Part shown: one piece after another, positions 7,100 through 23,014 of the stretch | Layout of the letters: each line of letters starts with the position of its first letter | Numbering within the stretch: the stretch's first letter is position 1 | DNA from: Geothrix sp. | Lineage (GTDB): Bacteria; Acidobacteriota; Holophagae; Holophagales; Holophagaceae | Length of the DNA stretch: 64,000 bases | Direction of reading: 5' to 3' | Assembly (NCBI RefSeq): GCF_020622065.1 | Contig: NZ_JAHRYQ010000001.1 | Location: 620,001 to 684,000, forward strand | Position numbers and translations under genes: made by a program | The notes under the pieces: model-generated | What the model was told of the DNA's origin: nothing | Seen by the model: the letters and a program-made list of their open reading frames with translations, nothing else | Database searches by the model: none

Positions 7100-10000
7100 T
7101 CACTCGTGGAGGGCTTTTCCCACGGACGGCAAGGATTTCCGACTGGACCGGAGCCGGGCCCACCGCAGCCGGGCCCGGTCCATGTAGAGGTAGATCACGG
7201 GGGTGGTGTAGAGGGTCAGGATCTGGCTGAAGAGCAGGCCGCCCACGATGGCGATGCCCAGCGGGCGGCGCAGCTCGGAGCCGGTGCCCATGCCGATGGC
7301 CAGGGGCAGGCCCCCGAGGAGGGCCGCCATGGTGGTCATGGTGATGGGCCGGAAGCGCAGCAGGCAGGCCTGGAAGATGGCGGCTTCGGGCGTGACCCCC
7401 TCCCGGCGCTCGACCTCGATGGCGAAGTCGATCATGAGGATGGCGTTCTTCTTCACGATCCCGATGAGGAGGATGATGCCGATGAAGGCGATGACGCTCA
7501 GCTCGGTGCGGAAGGCGAGCAGGGCCAGGAGGGCGCCCACGCCCGCGGAAGGCAGGGTGGACAGGATGGTCAGGGGGTGGATGAGGCTTTCATAGAGCAT
7601 GCCCAGCACGATGTAGACCACCAGGAGGGCCGCCACCACCAGAAGGGGCTGGTTCGACAGCGAGGCCCGGAACGCCTGGGCGGTGCCCATGAAGCTCCCC
7701 CGCAGGGTGCCGGGGAGGTGGATCTCCTGCTCGGCCTTGTCGATGGCGGCGACCGCATCGCCCAGGGCCACGCCCACCGGCAGGTTGAAGGACAGCGTCA
7801 CCGAGGGCAGCTGGCCCTGGTGGTTCACGGAGAGCGCGGTGTTCCGCCGTTCCAGGGTGGTGAAGGCGCTGAGCGGCACCAGGTTGCCGGCGGTGGAGCG
7901 TACATAGGTGTGGCGCAGGCCGTCGGGCGTCTGCATGAAGGGCGTATCCACCTCCATGACCACATGGTACTGATTCAAGGAGGTGTAGATGGTGGAGACG
8001 AAGCGCTGGCCGAAAGCATCGTAGAGGGTGCTGTCGATGGCCTGGGGCGTGATGCCCAGGCGGGAGGCGGTGGCCCGGTCGATGACCAGGGAGGCCTCCA
8101 GCCCCTTGTTCTGCAGGTCGGAGTTCACATCGGCCAGCTGGGGCACGGAGCGGAGCTTCTGGAGCACCTTCGGCGCCCACTCGAACAGCTCCCGGGCGTC
8201 GTCGCCCTGGAGGGTGTACTGGTACTGGGAGCTGGAGGGGCGCCCGCCGATGCGGAGGTCCTGGACGGGCTGCATGAACAGGGTGCCGCCGGGGAGGTGG
8301 GAGGTCTTGCCGCGGAGGCGGGCGATGACCTGGTCCGCGGTCTCCTTGCGCTGCTCGGTGGGCTTCAGGGAGGCGAACATGCGGCCCGTGTTGCCCCCGC
8401 CGATGAAGGCGGTGACATTCTCGATGGCCGGGTCCGCCTGCACGATGGCCACATACTCGGTCATCAGCTTCTCCATGCCGGCGAAGGAGATGTCCTGGGC
8501 GGCCTGGAGGGAGCCGTTGATGCGGCCCGTGTCCTGCTGGGGGAAGAAGCCCTTGGGGATGGCGATGTAGAGCCCGACGGTGGCCAACATGGTCCCCAGG
8601 GCCACCGCCAGGGTGAAGCGTTGGTGCCTCAGCACCCAGCCGAGGGACGATTCGTAGTGGCGCATGATCCACTGGAAGACGCGCTCGGTGGCCTGGAAGA
8701 CCCGTCCGTGGCGTTCTTCGCTGTGGGGCCGGAGGAGGCGCGAACACATCATCGGCGTGGTGGTCAGGGAGACCACCATGGACACGACGATGGCCACGGA
8801 CAGGGTGACGGCGAATTCGCGGAAGAGCCGACCGACGATGCCTCCCATCATCAGGATGGGAATGAAGACCGCGATGAGCGAGATGCTGATGGAGACCACC
8901 GTGAAGCCGATCTCCTTCGCGCCGTGGAGGGCCGCCTCCATGGGCTGCATGCCGTTCTCCAGGTGTCGTGTGATGTTCTCCACCACCACGATGGCGTCGT
9001 CCACCACGAAGCCCGTGGCGACGGTGAGCGCCATGAGGGAGAGGTTGTCGATGGTGTAGCCCAGCATGTACATGGCGCCGAAGGTGCCGATGAGCGAGAT
9101 GGGGACCGCGACGCTGGGTATTAGGGTGGATCGGACGCTCCGGAGGAACACGAAGACGACGAGGATCACCAGGCCGATGGAGATGGACATGGCCAGCTGC
9201 ACATCCTTCACCGAGGCGCGGATGGTGCGGGTGGCATCGATGAGGACCTTCAGCTCCATGGCGGGCGGAAGGGAGGCCTGGAGCTGCGGCAGGACGGCCC
9301 GCACCCGGTCGACGGTCTCGATGATGTTGGCGTCAGGCTGCCGGAAGATGGGGACGATGATGGCGGGGACGCCGTTGGACAACCCCCGGTTCCGCACATT
9401 CTCGACGGAATCGGTGACCTGGGCCACATCGGACAGGCGCACGGCGCTGCCGTTCCGATAGCGGATGATGAGGGGCTGGTAGTCCTCGGCGGTCATGAGC
9501 TGATCCGTCGTGGCGATGGACCAGGTGGTGCGATCGTTGGTCAGGTCGCCCTTCGGCCGGTTGAGGTTGGCGGCGGCCACGGCGACCCGGACATCTTCCA
9601 GGGCCAGGCCCTGGGCGTTCAGCAGGGCCGGGTTCACATCCACCCGCACGGCCGGCAGCGCGCCGCCCCACACGAAGACCTGGCCCACGCCCTGGATCTG
9701 GGACAGCTTCTGCTGGAGCACCGAGGAGGCGACATCGTACATGCGCTCGCGGGGAATCAGGTTGGAGGTGAGGGCCAGCATGAGGATGGGCGAGTCGGCC
9801 GGGTTGACCTTCCGGTAGGACGGGTTGTTGGGCAGGTTGGAGGGCAGGTCGCCCCGGGCCGCGTTGATGGCGGCCTGCACATCCCGGCCCGCGGCGTCGA
9901 TGTTGCGGCTGAGGTCGAACTGGAGGGTGATGTTGGTGGATCCCAGGGAACTCGAGGAGGTCATCTCCGTGATGCCCGCGATGCGCCCGAACTGGCGCTC

Positions 10001-19600: not shown

Positions 19601-19677
19601 GTACCCGTAGCTCAGCTGGATAGAGCGTTGGCCTCCGAAGCCAAAGGTCGCTGGTTCGATTCCAGTCGGGTGCACCA
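19601..19677 (+). tRNA. tRNA-Arg (anticodon CCG), CCA encoded
   Basis: A full cloverleaf folds by hand. The 7-bp acceptor is GTACCCG with CGGGTGC (one U-G wobble at pair 2-71). The D-stem is GCTC/GAGC, the anticodon stem TTGGC/GCCAA with loop CTCCGAA (anticodon CCG, decoding CGG), the variable loop AGGTC and the T-stem GCTGG/CCAGT with loop TTCGATT; discriminator A and CCA follow. Its 3' 46 bp are repeated at 22969-23014, so it is the attachment site of the element downstream. The repeat copy has A at position 71, which would restore Watson-Crick pairing. Confidence 0.96.
19632..19677 (+). repeat. attL: tRNA-Arg 3' half
   Basis: Left copy of the 46-bp direct repeat, running from the last base of the 5' anticodon stem to the CCA. 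It differs from the right copy only at T-loop bases (TT here, CC there) and at position 71 (G here, A there). As part of the functional tRNA this copy was probably brought in by the element. Confidence 0.85.
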
Positions 19678-20687: not shown

Positions 20688-21269
20688 ATGCAACACGAAT
20701 ACGCGTACCCCGAATTTACCAATTCCAACGACTCAGACGAGCGTGACCACAACTGCCTGGAACCCGAAGACTCTTACGCTGCGATCTTCTGGGAAACGGT
20801 TCACAAGATGAAGGAGGATGCCGATTGGCTGACGGCTCAGCCTCGTAAGGAGTCAGATCTTCTCTACCGCTACTTCGGGTCCTGTGTCAGCCGGATGAAG
20901 GATCTTCCTGATTACCGCACGGTCATGGACGACTGCCTCGATTACTTGAAGCACCTTGAGGTCCAGGTCGTTGAGCGCATTCCGGTGTTCGGCTTGCCAG
21001 ACTCCGTCATGGAAGCGACCCCAATGGATCTCTTCCTCGACTCTGCTTTTGCCATTCTCAAGGCGAGCAACCCGTGGCTCTGTGAGCAGCCTCGAACTAC
21101 TCCGGAAATTGTTCAGCACCTCTTTGAGGAGGAGTGGGGGATCGAGGAACAGCGTGTAGATCTTCAGTTGACCATCGCCGCCTGCCTCATGGACCTCGGA
21201 TATCGTACCCAGTCGCACTCTGACTCGGAGGTCACCTGGAAGTGGTTTCCCCGGAAGGCGCTGGTGTAA
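20688..21269 (+). CDS. Element-encoded protein of unknown function
   Basis: 193-aa acidic protein starting at ATG 20688 with AGGAG eight bases upstream; a TTG at 20649 is also in frame but poorer. Most of it is predicted helical. The last 45 residues (LTIAACLMDLGYRTQ, ending VTWKWFPRKALV) loosely recall the winged-helix tail at the C-terminus of phage/plasmid replication helicases and primases, but I would not assign that function. It is the first of three genes with abutting or overlapping ends: its TAA is followed at once by the ATG of the 52-aa gene, so coupled translation is likely. Codon use is unlike the core genome. Confidence 0.7.
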   Translation: MQHEYAYPEFTNSNDSDERDHNCLEPEDSYAAIFWETVHKMKEDADWLTAQPRKESDLLYRYFGSCVSRMKDLPDYRTVMDDCLDYLKHLEVQVVERIPVFGLPDSVMEATPMDLFLDSAFAILKASNPWLCEQPRTTPEIVQHLFEEEWGIEEQRVDLQLTIAACLMDLGYRTQSHSDSEVTWKWFPRKALV

Positions 21270-21428
21270 ATGACAACCAGCACTGCGAAAAACACCCCTA
21301 CTCGAAAAGTGCCACCCCCCCTCTTCATTAGGGGCGAAGCCCCGCCCGGTATCTATATAGAGCAAGATACCGTCCACCAGATCCACCGTGACCATCGCCT
21401 CTCCGTTTCCGGGGAGGTGTGGTCATGA
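21270..21428 (+). CDS. Small 52-aa element protein
   Basis: Short frame starting with the ATG directly after the TAA of the previous gene and ending in TGA that overlaps the next ATG (ATGA at 21425-21428). The product begins MTTSTAKNTPTRKVPPPLF and ends with a charged segment containing HQIHRDHRLS. The perfect fit between both neighbours, and not its sequence, argues that it is a real gene. Size and position would suit an excisionase, a DNA-binding accessory factor or a replication cofactor, but no helix-turn-helix is evident. Confidence 0.55.
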   Translation: MTTSTAKNTPTRKVPPPLFIRGEAPPGIYIEQDTVHQIHRDHRLSVSGEVWS

Positions 21429-22084
21429 AAGGATTTGACCGTAGCACCGTCAGCAGCCTCGAAGGGATCGCCTCGTATGGGTGCGTCTTCCTGGAACTGC
21501 AACCCGGCAAGAAGATGCCCACCCGCGCATGGGATGACTTCCTATACCTGCATGACCAGCAAGGGCAGTCCAGGCTCGACCTGGCATTTGCGTGGCTGAA
21601 ACGAGGCAACGGCGTGGGCTACCTATTTCGGAACCGCCTAGCAGCCGTGGACTGTGACAGCCCAGAGACCGTTCAACGGGTCATCCGATTCAACCAAGAG
21701 CGGGGAATCAAATGCCCCATAACATGGACTCCCAGCGGCGGGCGGCACTTCCTATTTGAGTTGCCACAAAGCGTTGACCAGCATCGCCTGAAGCACCATG
21801 TCTGCCACCCGAAAGAGGCGGGCGTCGTCATGCCCTGGGACTTCAAGTTGGGTTCAAGGACCATGCTGGTCGCGCCAGGAACGATCAGGTTCGATGCTGA
21901 CGGGAACGAGATTGGTCGCTACAAAGCCTCACCCTGGATGCAGCCGCCCGTGGTCGACCCGAGGGATCTAGCACCGGGGCTGAGTATCTACCCCGAGTTC
22001 CCCGCAGACCTTCTGGAGCGCCTTCTTCGTGAACTGGGAGCGGTGAGGCTTCCCGTCCTCTGCGGGGAACACCCACTCACTTAG
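21425..22084 (+). CDS. Primase-polymerase (PrimPol/AEP-type) domain protein, probably C-terminally truncated
   Basis: 219-aa protein at ATG 21425 with GGGGAGG upstream. It matches the bifunctional DNA primase/polymerase N-terminal domain: metal-binding acidic motif VDCD at residues 75-78 after GVGYLFRNRLAA, the nucleotide-binding SGGRH at 104-108, and a third acidic position in WDFK (138-141) followed by LVAPGTI. Such domains prime replication of plasmids, phages and integrative elements and are usually fused to or followed by a helicase. Here none follows: the 3' end runs 117 bp into the oppositely oriented integrase gene, and the last 25 or so residues look like antisense read-through. I infer a deletion joined the two genes. 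Confidence 0.78.
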   Translation: MKGFDRSTVSSLEGIASYGCVFLELQPGKKMPTRAWDDFLYLHDQQGQSRLDLAFAWLKRGNGVGYLFRNRLAAVDCDSPETVQRVIRFNQERGIKCPITWTPSGGRHFLFELPQSVDQHRLKHHVCHPKEAGVVMPWDFKLGSRTMLVAPGTIRFDADGNEIGRYKASPWMQPPVVDPRDLAPGLSIYPEFPADLLERLLRELGAVRLPVLCGEHPLT

Positions 22085-22837
22085 CACGGGCTTTGGCATT
22101 CCGTGGATCGCACTCCAGACCCAATCTGGAACGGGGATGACGCGGGCTTCCTTCCCCTTTGCCTTGCCGACCACATAGGTCCTCTGTTCTGGATCGAACC
22201 ACTCCCAGCGCATCCCCAGGACCTCAGCCTCACGGAGCCCCAATCCGAACATGACGCGGATGATGACGGGGATATGGGGGTTGCGGGCTGCCTTATTCAC
22301 AGCCTCTAGGAATTCGTGAACCCGGTTCGCTGGCACGATTGCCCGTGGTTGCTTCTGAACTTTCAACTTCGGCAGATGAAACGGAATCTCCTGGGCGTAC
22401 TTCATCCGGATCCCGAAGTTGAAGATCGCCTTCAGGGTCTTCATGGTGTTGTTGGCATAAGTCGCGGAACACCCCGCCTCCAGCATCCGGGCACGAAGTT
22501 CCATCACCTGTGAGGTCGTTACTTTCGTGACGGGTAATGTGCCGATGACCGGCATCACCCACAGGCGAAGCGCACACTCCGCACTGGAGAGGTATCCACG
22601 GGAGAAGGTCGCCCGGTTGACCCGAAGCCACTCACTGATCAGAGCCGACGCTGCAATGATCCTTGTCGGACGCTTGAGTTGACCGTCAATCAGAGCGCGA
22701 CGCTTCTCCTCCAGCACCTTTCGGGCTGTCGCTAAGTCTGTTGCACGGGTTGAGCCATGAGCCCGCTGTCCATGTGCTTGGATGATGTATTGCCAGTAGC
22801 GCCCTTTCTTGTAGAGCCCTGGATGTGGGGTTGCCAT
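21968..22837 (-). CDS. Tyrosine recombinase/integrase, truncated before the catalytic C-terminus
   Basis: 289-aa phage-type integrase. It has an N-terminal arm-binding region, a SAM-like core-binding domain (about residues 60-160) and the start of the catalytic domain with the first active-site Arg (Arg202 in GLGLREAEVLGMRW) and the beta-hairpin Lys (KAKGKEARVIP). The frame then stops at LGVDTQPRC, before the HxLRH box, the following His/Trp and the nucleophilic Tyr; none of these is found in any frame downstream. Usual length is 350-400 aa. ATG 22837 has GGAGG upstream. The protein cannot catalyse recombination, though DNA binding might remain. Confidence 0.85.
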   Translation of the reverse strand: MATPHPGLYKKGRYWQYIIQAHGQRAHGSTRATDLATARKVLEEKRRALIDGQLKRPTRIIAASALISEWLRVNRATFSRGYLSSAECALRLWVMPVIGTLPVTKVTTSQVMELRARMLEAGCSATYANNTMKTLKAIFNFGIRMKYAQEIPFHLPKLKVQKQPRAIVPANRVHEFLEAVNKAARNPHIPVIIRVMFGLGLREAEVLGMRWEWFDPEQRTYVVGKAKGKEARVIPVPDWVWSAIHGMPKPVLSEWVFPAEDGKPHRSQFTKKALQKVCGELGVDTQPRC

Positions 22838-22840
22838 TGA

Positions 22841-22861
22841 CCGCCTCCGTGAGAGAGGCGG
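22841..22861. promoter_or_regulatory. Hairpin over the integrase ribosome binding site
   Basis: CCGCCTC and GAGGCGG (7-bp perfect arms, 7-nt loop) flank the start of the integrase message. The GGAGG Shine-Dalgarno lies partly in one arm, so folding would hide it and keep integrase translation low. Seen in sequence; the effect is inferred. Confidence 0.4.
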
Positions 22862-22968: not shown

Positions 22969-23014
22969 CCTCCGAAGCCAAAGGTCGCTGGTTCGACCCC
23001 AGTCGGGTACACCA
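22969..23014 (+). repeat. attR: displaced 3' half of tRNA-Arg
   Basis: Right copy of the 46-bp repeat, ending ACACCA. With the current tRNA 5' half it would give a fully Watson-Crick acceptor stem and TTCGACC as T-loop, so it is probably the original host 3' end pushed downstream by integration. Confidence 0.85.

Follow-up and report, generated by a model that had tools for sequence, protein, structure and literature searches.

A tRNA-integrated element of Geothrix, probably decayed, whose PrimPol and integrase genes are both cut short at an inferred deletion scar

The window examined here is a 64,000-nucleotide stretch of a Geothrix sp. genome (contig NZ_JAHRYQ010000001.1 of assembly GCF_020622065.1, forward-strand positions 620,001 to 684,000). 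Its locus of interest holds three tightly joined frames on the plus strand: a 193-aa frame (20688–21269) that stops at a TAA (21267–21269), a 52-aa frame (21270–21428) whose ATG follows directly on that TAA, and a 219-aa PrimPol frame (21425–22084) whose ATG at 21425 overlaps the TGA of the 52-aa frame (ATGA). An earlier sequence-only reading had taken these frames for a minimal replication-like or defence-like cassette, and its frames, coordinates and joins were all confirmed. It missed a tRNA-Arg gene, a 46-bp repeat and the overlap of the PrimPol frame with a truncated tyrosine-recombinase integrase gene on the minus strand (21968–22837, 289 aa), the 3′ ends of the two genes meeting head-on over 117 bp. 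Codon composition supports three of the stretches as coding: the 193-aa frame (z 6.5), the core of PrimPol (z 5.5) and the integrase gene (z 8.0).

The tRNA gene, a plus-strand tRNA-Arg (CCG) at 19601–19677 identified by ARAGORN and by the Rfam tRNA family, is the integration target. A 3,337-bp insertion, which contains all three frames, lies at its 3′ end and is flanked by a 46-bp repeat whose two copies are 93% identical: attL (19632–19677, plus strand), the 3′ part of the present tRNA, and attR (22969–23014, plus strand), the right end of the insertion. GC content is 0.57 in the insert versus 0.66–0.69 in the flanks. The corresponding site is empty in a relative, G027, whose flanks are 93–95% identical to those of the window; there the tRNA leads to the same downstream gene with no insert, and the spacing is 178 bp in both. 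Because the tRNA end of G027 is identical to attR over 46 bp and differs from attL at three positions, attR is the displaced 3′ part of the original host tRNA and attL was brought by the element. Both an att repeat at a tRNA 3′ end and an empty site in a relative, the marks of a tRNA-targeted integrative element, are present. Rfam matched the tRNA alone in this region, and promoter and terminator scans gave chance-level results only. The earlier suggestion of a satellite element stands as far as the tRNA, the repeat and the empty site indicate a small mobile element, but genes of the kind with which phage satellites exploit a helper (PICI, P4 or PLE type) had no match among the four proteins of an element whose middle is lost and whose relatives' cargo was only sampled.

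The first gene encodes a protein of two similar tandem units (about residues 26–100 and 105–186). Relatives of its N-terminal half occur in three of 77 family genomes, its own included, the other two being G244 (52% identity) and G027 (38%), and a single-protein search reached 6 of 396 phylum genomes at E 0.01, again with its own. In G027 a 125-aa relative lies directly before a PrimPol-like gene and overlaps its start. The C-terminal half is similar to units in two genomes, G087 and G390, and to a protein of 105 aa encoded close to a Rep-like gene in G324; the G087 unit is the start of a 355-aa protein of element L060, which together with its kin is called Rep-like here. From these similarities, the 193-aa protein looks like a relative of small proteins that stand beside, or are fused to, Rep-like proteins. 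Compared with each other by hhalign of their alignments, the two halves gave a probability of 46% and E 2e-4. The structural model, of low confidence (pLDDT 57), has helices at 29–43, 45–50, 55–66 and 70–86 and then at 112–127, 129–133, 139–150 and 156–173, and it had no significant fold match. The protein thus appears to be a tandem repeat whose units may be winged helices, the term winged-helix-like being suggested by the helix pattern and a terminal W-x-W.

No match to the 193-aa protein was found in PHROG, NCBIfam or PADLOC, in solved structures or in viral contigs, and the best Pfam match (SpecificRecomb, E 0.061, under the cut-off) was put down to chance along with the other sub-threshold ones. 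It had been proposed that the trio's interpretation would fail if this protein were a degraded known helicase; a helicase remnant was rejected, as Pfam, PHROG, NCBIfam and PADLOC lent it no support, and the C-terminal half resembles the start of a Rep-like protein instead. A further apparent relative in L007 (G242) failed on re-examination. Upstream of the gene, the plus-strand segment 20449–20657 is a candidate promoter or origin region; it is 81% identical over 210 alignment columns to positions 9643–9851 of L022 in G244, a different species, although the protein encoded next to it shares only about 50% identity. This leader is a possible origin or regulatory region by sequence conservation, and a structured DNA origin within it is unsupported (DNA fold z −0.25).

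For the 52-aa frame, searches at E 0.001 found no relative in 77 family genomes, its own not counted (best E 0.011, within a frame of 229 aa), or among 16 fetched loci (best E 0.036). Matches that 38 of the 77 genomes give at E up to 1 do not rise above chance, its own place aside. The absence of conserved relatives, which had been named beforehand as evidence against a real trio, was thus borne out. Its coding signal (z 2.3) is no higher than that of the PrimPol tail, which is read as antisense integrase (also z 2.3); base shuffles would give an open frame of its length in 19% of cases, so codon composition offers no real evidence of coding. At its end lies an 18-bp RNA hairpin (21387–21427, plus strand) in which the Shine-Dalgarno sequence (GGGGAGG) and ATG of the PrimPol gene are paired with the end of the 52-aa frame. 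The fold of 21262–21434 has a z of −5.44, with 0 of 200 shuffles as stable, and the 72-nt PrimPol start region alone has a z of −5.43. None of six PrimPol relatives (L020, L023, L077, L043, L041 and L072, the TTG start of L077 being a guess) has a comparable start hairpin, all at z −1.9 or weaker, and this hairpin may be particular to the window element; L073 was left out of the comparison, the position used for it not being a start codon. Most likely, the 52-aa frame acts in cis, perhaps as a leader for coupled translation, a role predicted from one fold: ribosomes translating it would open the hairpin and thereby allow translation of PrimPol.

The third frame is a PrimPol as earlier proposed, matching Pfam PF09250 at E 7.9e-7 with 30.1 bits against a cut-off of 22.8. 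PrimPol/AEP active-site motifs are named DxD/E, sxH and hD, and the window protein carries VDCD, SGGRH and PWDFK, with residues D76, D78, H108 and D139; the positions D73, D75, H106, D137 and K139, in the numbering of relative L020, are invariant in eight aligned rows including the window. A PrimPol profile (A1) has matches in 17 of 77 family genomes and 5 of 11 genera at E 1e-5, the weakest of these genomes holding distant relatives, and a single-protein search with the window PrimPol reached 6 of 396 phylum genomes at E 0.001, its own included. Ten places each cover more than 300 of the 402 profile positions in open frames of 395–531 aa, and the window frame covers positions 3–212. A 712-aa frame with a profile match in L082 (G166) looks by eye like a PrimPol–helicase fusion. 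Weak matches came from L011–L013, and a genome contig search yielded one relative, in Geothrix limicola. Beyond these, the profile had two chance-level matches among solved structures (E 0.34 and 0.92), a PrimPol alignment (A4) had no match in viral contigs, the L020 PrimPol had none in plasmids, and a phage search returned three Enterococcus records at E 4–5e-3 with partial coverage.

Among six long relatives, only L020, L073 and L077 pass the Pfam Prim-Pol model, while L043, L010 and L072 are unmatched, so the more distant PrimPol assignments rest on alignment. No helicase domain was detected by Pfam in the long relatives tested, nor was any helicase matched in the four proteins of the window element, in keeping with the earlier remark that none is present. 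The relative in G087 (L020) is a PrimPol of 411 aa, 52.5% identical to that of the window; the homology spans residues 9–181 of that relative and ends near nucleotide 21991. Its AF2 model (pLDDT 85.8) consists of a core (about 1–185), a mostly helical region (194–321) and a winged-helix-like end (332–404). The core is closest to the PrimPol of pRN1 (Z 12.7, rmsd 3.5, 175 aligned; Foldseek E 7e-7; identity 13–16%), followed by NrS-1 (Z 10.0, rmsd 3.3, 140 aligned) and RepB′ (Z 9.4, rmsd 3.7, 148 aligned), and residues about 304–404 resemble the P4 origin-binding domain at a middling Z of 5.6 (rmsd 3.8, 84 aligned). In the window PrimPol the core occupies codons 1 to about 190 and the remainder is the antisense of the integrase gene, so that a counterpart of L020 residues 194–404, both the helical part and the winged-helix-like end, is missing. 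For pRN1, PMC8076596 describes polymerase activity of the core alone, and priming that cannot do without the helical domain. On this analogy, the window PrimPol would lack the parts that prime, bind and perhaps unwind DNA, and the remaining core could at most extend primers.

The integrase is cut in a similar manner. It matches Pfam Phage_integrase (E 2e-9) and PHROG 1 (E 2e-33), shares with PHROG 1 integrases and other tyrosine recombinases the N-terminal and core-binding parts together with the first catalytic Arg and the Lys (R202 and K227), and, in contrast to them, lacks the HRLR-type and LGH-type motifs and the terminal tyrosine, all of which would lie beyond its end. An active tyrosine recombinase has the set Arg-Lys-HxxR-H/W-Tyr; by this comparison, the fragment might bind DNA and could not cut it. 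Within the genus, 12 of 47 genomes hold relatives at E 1e-30. Nine full-length relatives of 344–366 aa have the HxxR/H/Tyr region, and their homology to the window protein ends at window residue 283/284.

Both truncations fall at one place, an inferred deletion scar at 21980–22003 that joins PrimPol (about codon 190 of about 410) to the integrase (codon 284 of about 350). Integrase homology begins at 22004 at the DNA level and reaches 21986 at the protein level, and PrimPol residues 191–219 align to the antisense of the integrases of L020 (E 0.004) and L039 (E 0.34). Since a single deletion would place both gene ends at one scar, we infer that one internal deletion probably removed everything from about codon 190 of PrimPol to about codon 284 of the integrase: both C-termini and any cargo between them. 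One observation speaks against the scar: a tblastn piece of the L037 integrase runs about 17 codons past it, through a stop and with weak similarity, which we read as over-extension into PrimPol DNA. The searches yielded no intact parent that carries near-identical genes at this tRNA-Arg (CCG) site, so the case for a deletion is built on relatives at 52–55% identity. Separately, the integrases of L037 and L041 share the C-terminal sequence MVDPPSAAAAAV despite an overall identity of 58%, and their dN/dS of 0.40 is above that of other pairs; recombination between elements is a possible source of this shared end.

The fuller relatives indicate what may have been lost. L020 (G087) is a 6.7-kb element bounded by tRNA-Met copies, in which an integrase of 356 aa and the 411-aa PrimPol, 55% and 52% identical to the window copies, respectively, face each other across about 3.2 kb. 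The same genome holds L060, a 4.4-kb element bounded by tRNA-Phe and carrying an integrase and the 355-aa Rep-like protein. Rep-like proteins are similar to the C-terminal regions of PrimPols (pairs with L041, E 1e-5 and 2e-5) and, weakly, the C-termini of phage primases (E 0.06–0.15), with no significant match in Pfam. A 390-aa protein of L040 (13559–14731, minus strand) with an HPHTQF motif looks by eye like an HUH Rep, without a Pfam match, which suggests that replication modules swap between elements.

Twelve elements have two tRNA/att copies, one in G027 among them; L046, for which one tRNA copy was found, was left out. Their integrase is full length in six (L020, L060, L039, L040, L041 and L043) and C-terminally cut in the other six, at residue 282 in the window, 80 in L022, 144 in L044, 270 in L045, 201 in L062 and 199 in L063 (of 356). 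Beside five of the six cut integrases lies a piece of a replication-region gene, which is most of one in L044 and is split over two frames in L045; L062 has none. Two of these elements reside in the window's own genome (G000), both with the integrase cut near residue 200: L062, a 2.97-kb element at tRNA-Arg (acg) (C1, 1801250–1804218), and L063, a 1.9-kb element at tRNA-Phe (C2, 960999–962913) that retains a C-terminal part of a PrimPol. Most cut elements were found through the integrase query, so copies without any integrase were missed. No internal stops interrupt the six cut integrases where they match, and dN/dS is 0.05–0.15 in five integrase pairs with at least one cut member, some of which have a high dS. 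These open frames and low ratios suggest that either the decay is recent or the pieces are still under selection.

Some members of the family carry defence-like cargo. Six of eight hand-picked cargo proteins match PADLOC at E 0.001, and Pfam agrees for most: an ApeA-like HEPN protein in L022, a PDC-M02 pair in L046 (one tRNA copy seen), a type I methylase-like protein in L043 (921 of 1,026 aa given), an HNH/type IV-like protein in L042 (second tRNA copy not found) and, as a weak match, a Peptidase_M78 protein in L040. None of the four window proteins matched a PADLOC defence family at E 0.1, and the notion of a defence-like cassette is unsupported for these genes; the window element either lost such cargo or never had any.

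The integrase gene has a hairpin of its own. An 8-bp hairpin covers its Shine-Dalgarno sequence (22841–22861, minus strand), and the Shine-Dalgarno lies within a hairpin just before the ATG in all 16 family integrases that have one, namely those of the window, L015, L016, L020, L022, L037–L045, L059 and L060; the 18 integrases examined also comprised L046 and L036, which lack a Shine-Dalgarno, and L035, whose start was not located, was left out. Among long frames of the window that lie beyond the element, 3 of 22 showed the same state; some of these 22 are perhaps not genes. Shuffle rates of 0.58 for the family integrases and 0.26 for the window frames mean that part of this excess is due to composition, and some of the 16 leaders are near-identical. 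The MAFFT alignment of the leaders is not structure-aware, and a test in which the outer arms of 12 dissimilar leaders were dealt anew was used instead. The observed stability of −171.8 compared with −118.6 (sd 10.2), the observed 46 paired bases of 64 compared with 27.7 (sd 5.3), and neither was reached in 500 trials. The variable outer stem covaries. This suggests a translational restraint of the integrase. IS10 and IS50 are protected from host read-through transcripts, and one possibility, by analogy, is that the integrase hairpin guards against such transcripts as well.

The element has both similarities to known systems and differences from them. AICEs are integrative elements that target tRNA genes. 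Those with a Prim-Pol, as described in PMC3218068, likewise combine a tyrosine integrase, a PF09250 protein and small replication partner genes; however, no FtsK/SpoIIIE-type Tra protein was matched among the four element proteins, the host is not an actinobacterium and the element is far smaller. The helicase-less PrimPol-PV1 families RepE/RepS and PrimHYQ, and also ColE2 Rep, share with the Geothrix family the AEP core, a mostly helical domain and an end that resembles winged-helix folds at a middling Z, as judged from the L020 model, as well as the lack of a helicase domain in the relatives tested. They differ in that the relatives have no PriCT or ColE2-replicase match in Pfam, helices occupying 194–321 in the L020 model, and in that nothing beyond the core is left in the window copy. 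PMC5862659 describes families with AEP, PriCT-1 and HTH domains in which a helicase is absent from both protein and element, and it cites ColE2 Rep as unwinding DNA with PriCT-1 and HTH; it also asks how replicons without a helicase unwind their DNA. The pRN1 ORF904 primase-polymerase, the best fold match of the L020 core, carries a helicase domain according to PMC8076596, unlike the family PrimPols tested.

We regard the region as very probably a decayed element of 3,337 bp, one of a family of small elements that sit in tRNA genes of Geothrix and its close kin; here an internal deletion would have cut the ends of both PrimPol and integrase. Most likely, the element is immobile and non-replicating. 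A fuller relative would be arranged as a tRNA copy, an integrase, variable cargo, a replication protein in which no helicase was detected and a second tRNA copy, the replication protein comprising a PrimPol core, a mostly helical domain and a winged-helix-like end, with small winged-helix-like proteins added in some. For the intact state, we propose that the small proteins would bind an origin on the element and that PrimPol would prime replication of the excised circle, its C-terminal part binding the template and perhaps unwinding it by analogy with pRN1 and ColE2 Rep.

A functional non-autonomous element could have kept both its short PrimPol core and an integrase fragment without catalytic activity for use, for instance with the fragment occupying att and locking the element in place, and be excised in trans. 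The stop-free matched parts and low pairwise dN/dS of the six cut integrases, the retention of both ends beside a cut integrase in six of the 12 bounded elements, and an AICE with a truncated integrase that is reported in PMC3218068 to excise are all in its favour. However, the low dN/dS may predate the cuts, retention of the integrase N-terminus is partly ascertainment, as the integrase query found most cases, and the six cut points all differ, as expected from separate decay events, with the Rep piece of L045 split over two frames. The own genome contains only three close integrase matches, all cut, and no close intact one; four more distant recombinase-like matches (E 3.5e-5 to 0.0135) could supply the function. 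On balance, such an element is unlikely. An extended version of the idea is somewhat less probable again: tRNA elements of Geothrix would repeatedly give rise to short, locked forms that are selected and in which both att ends survive along with the DNA-binding half of the integrase and some of the replication region, the fragment holding att against re-excision or incoming elements under a conserved, translation-lowering hairpin.

The view of the sequence-only reading, a complete and compact three-gene replication or defence cassette, draws on the tight gene joins, on the lack of a Pfam helicase domain in the PrimPol relatives searched and on the overlap of a first-gene relative with a PrimPol-like gene in G027. 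This last arrangement does support the pairing of the first gene with PrimPol in one relative, but completeness fails, as PrimPol lacks the C-terminal half of its relatives and ends in antisense integrase, both genes being cut at one scar. No relative of the 52-aa frame turned up, so no other element was seen to carry the whole trio, and PADLOC matches none of the proteins; a complete cassette is already largely refuted and very improbable. A false join in the assembly that removed the middle of the element would likewise account for both truncations at a single stroke, but the genome is given as 100% complete in two contigs and the same kind of cut recurs in elements of other genomes, which leaves such an artefact with the smallest probability of the explanations weighed here.

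A literature search for integrative elements of Geothrix found no description of such a small tRNA-integrated family, which is apparently undescribed, yet of a familiar kind. Recognizing the decayed, tRNA-integrated element for what it very probably is guards against cataloguing a deletion scar as if it were a minimal replication module. In addition, the covarying hairpin before the integrase start provides a testable control device. Finally, Geothrix and its kin have a family of small tRNA-integrated elements with PrimPols in which no helicase domain is detected, some of the elements with defence-like cargo.
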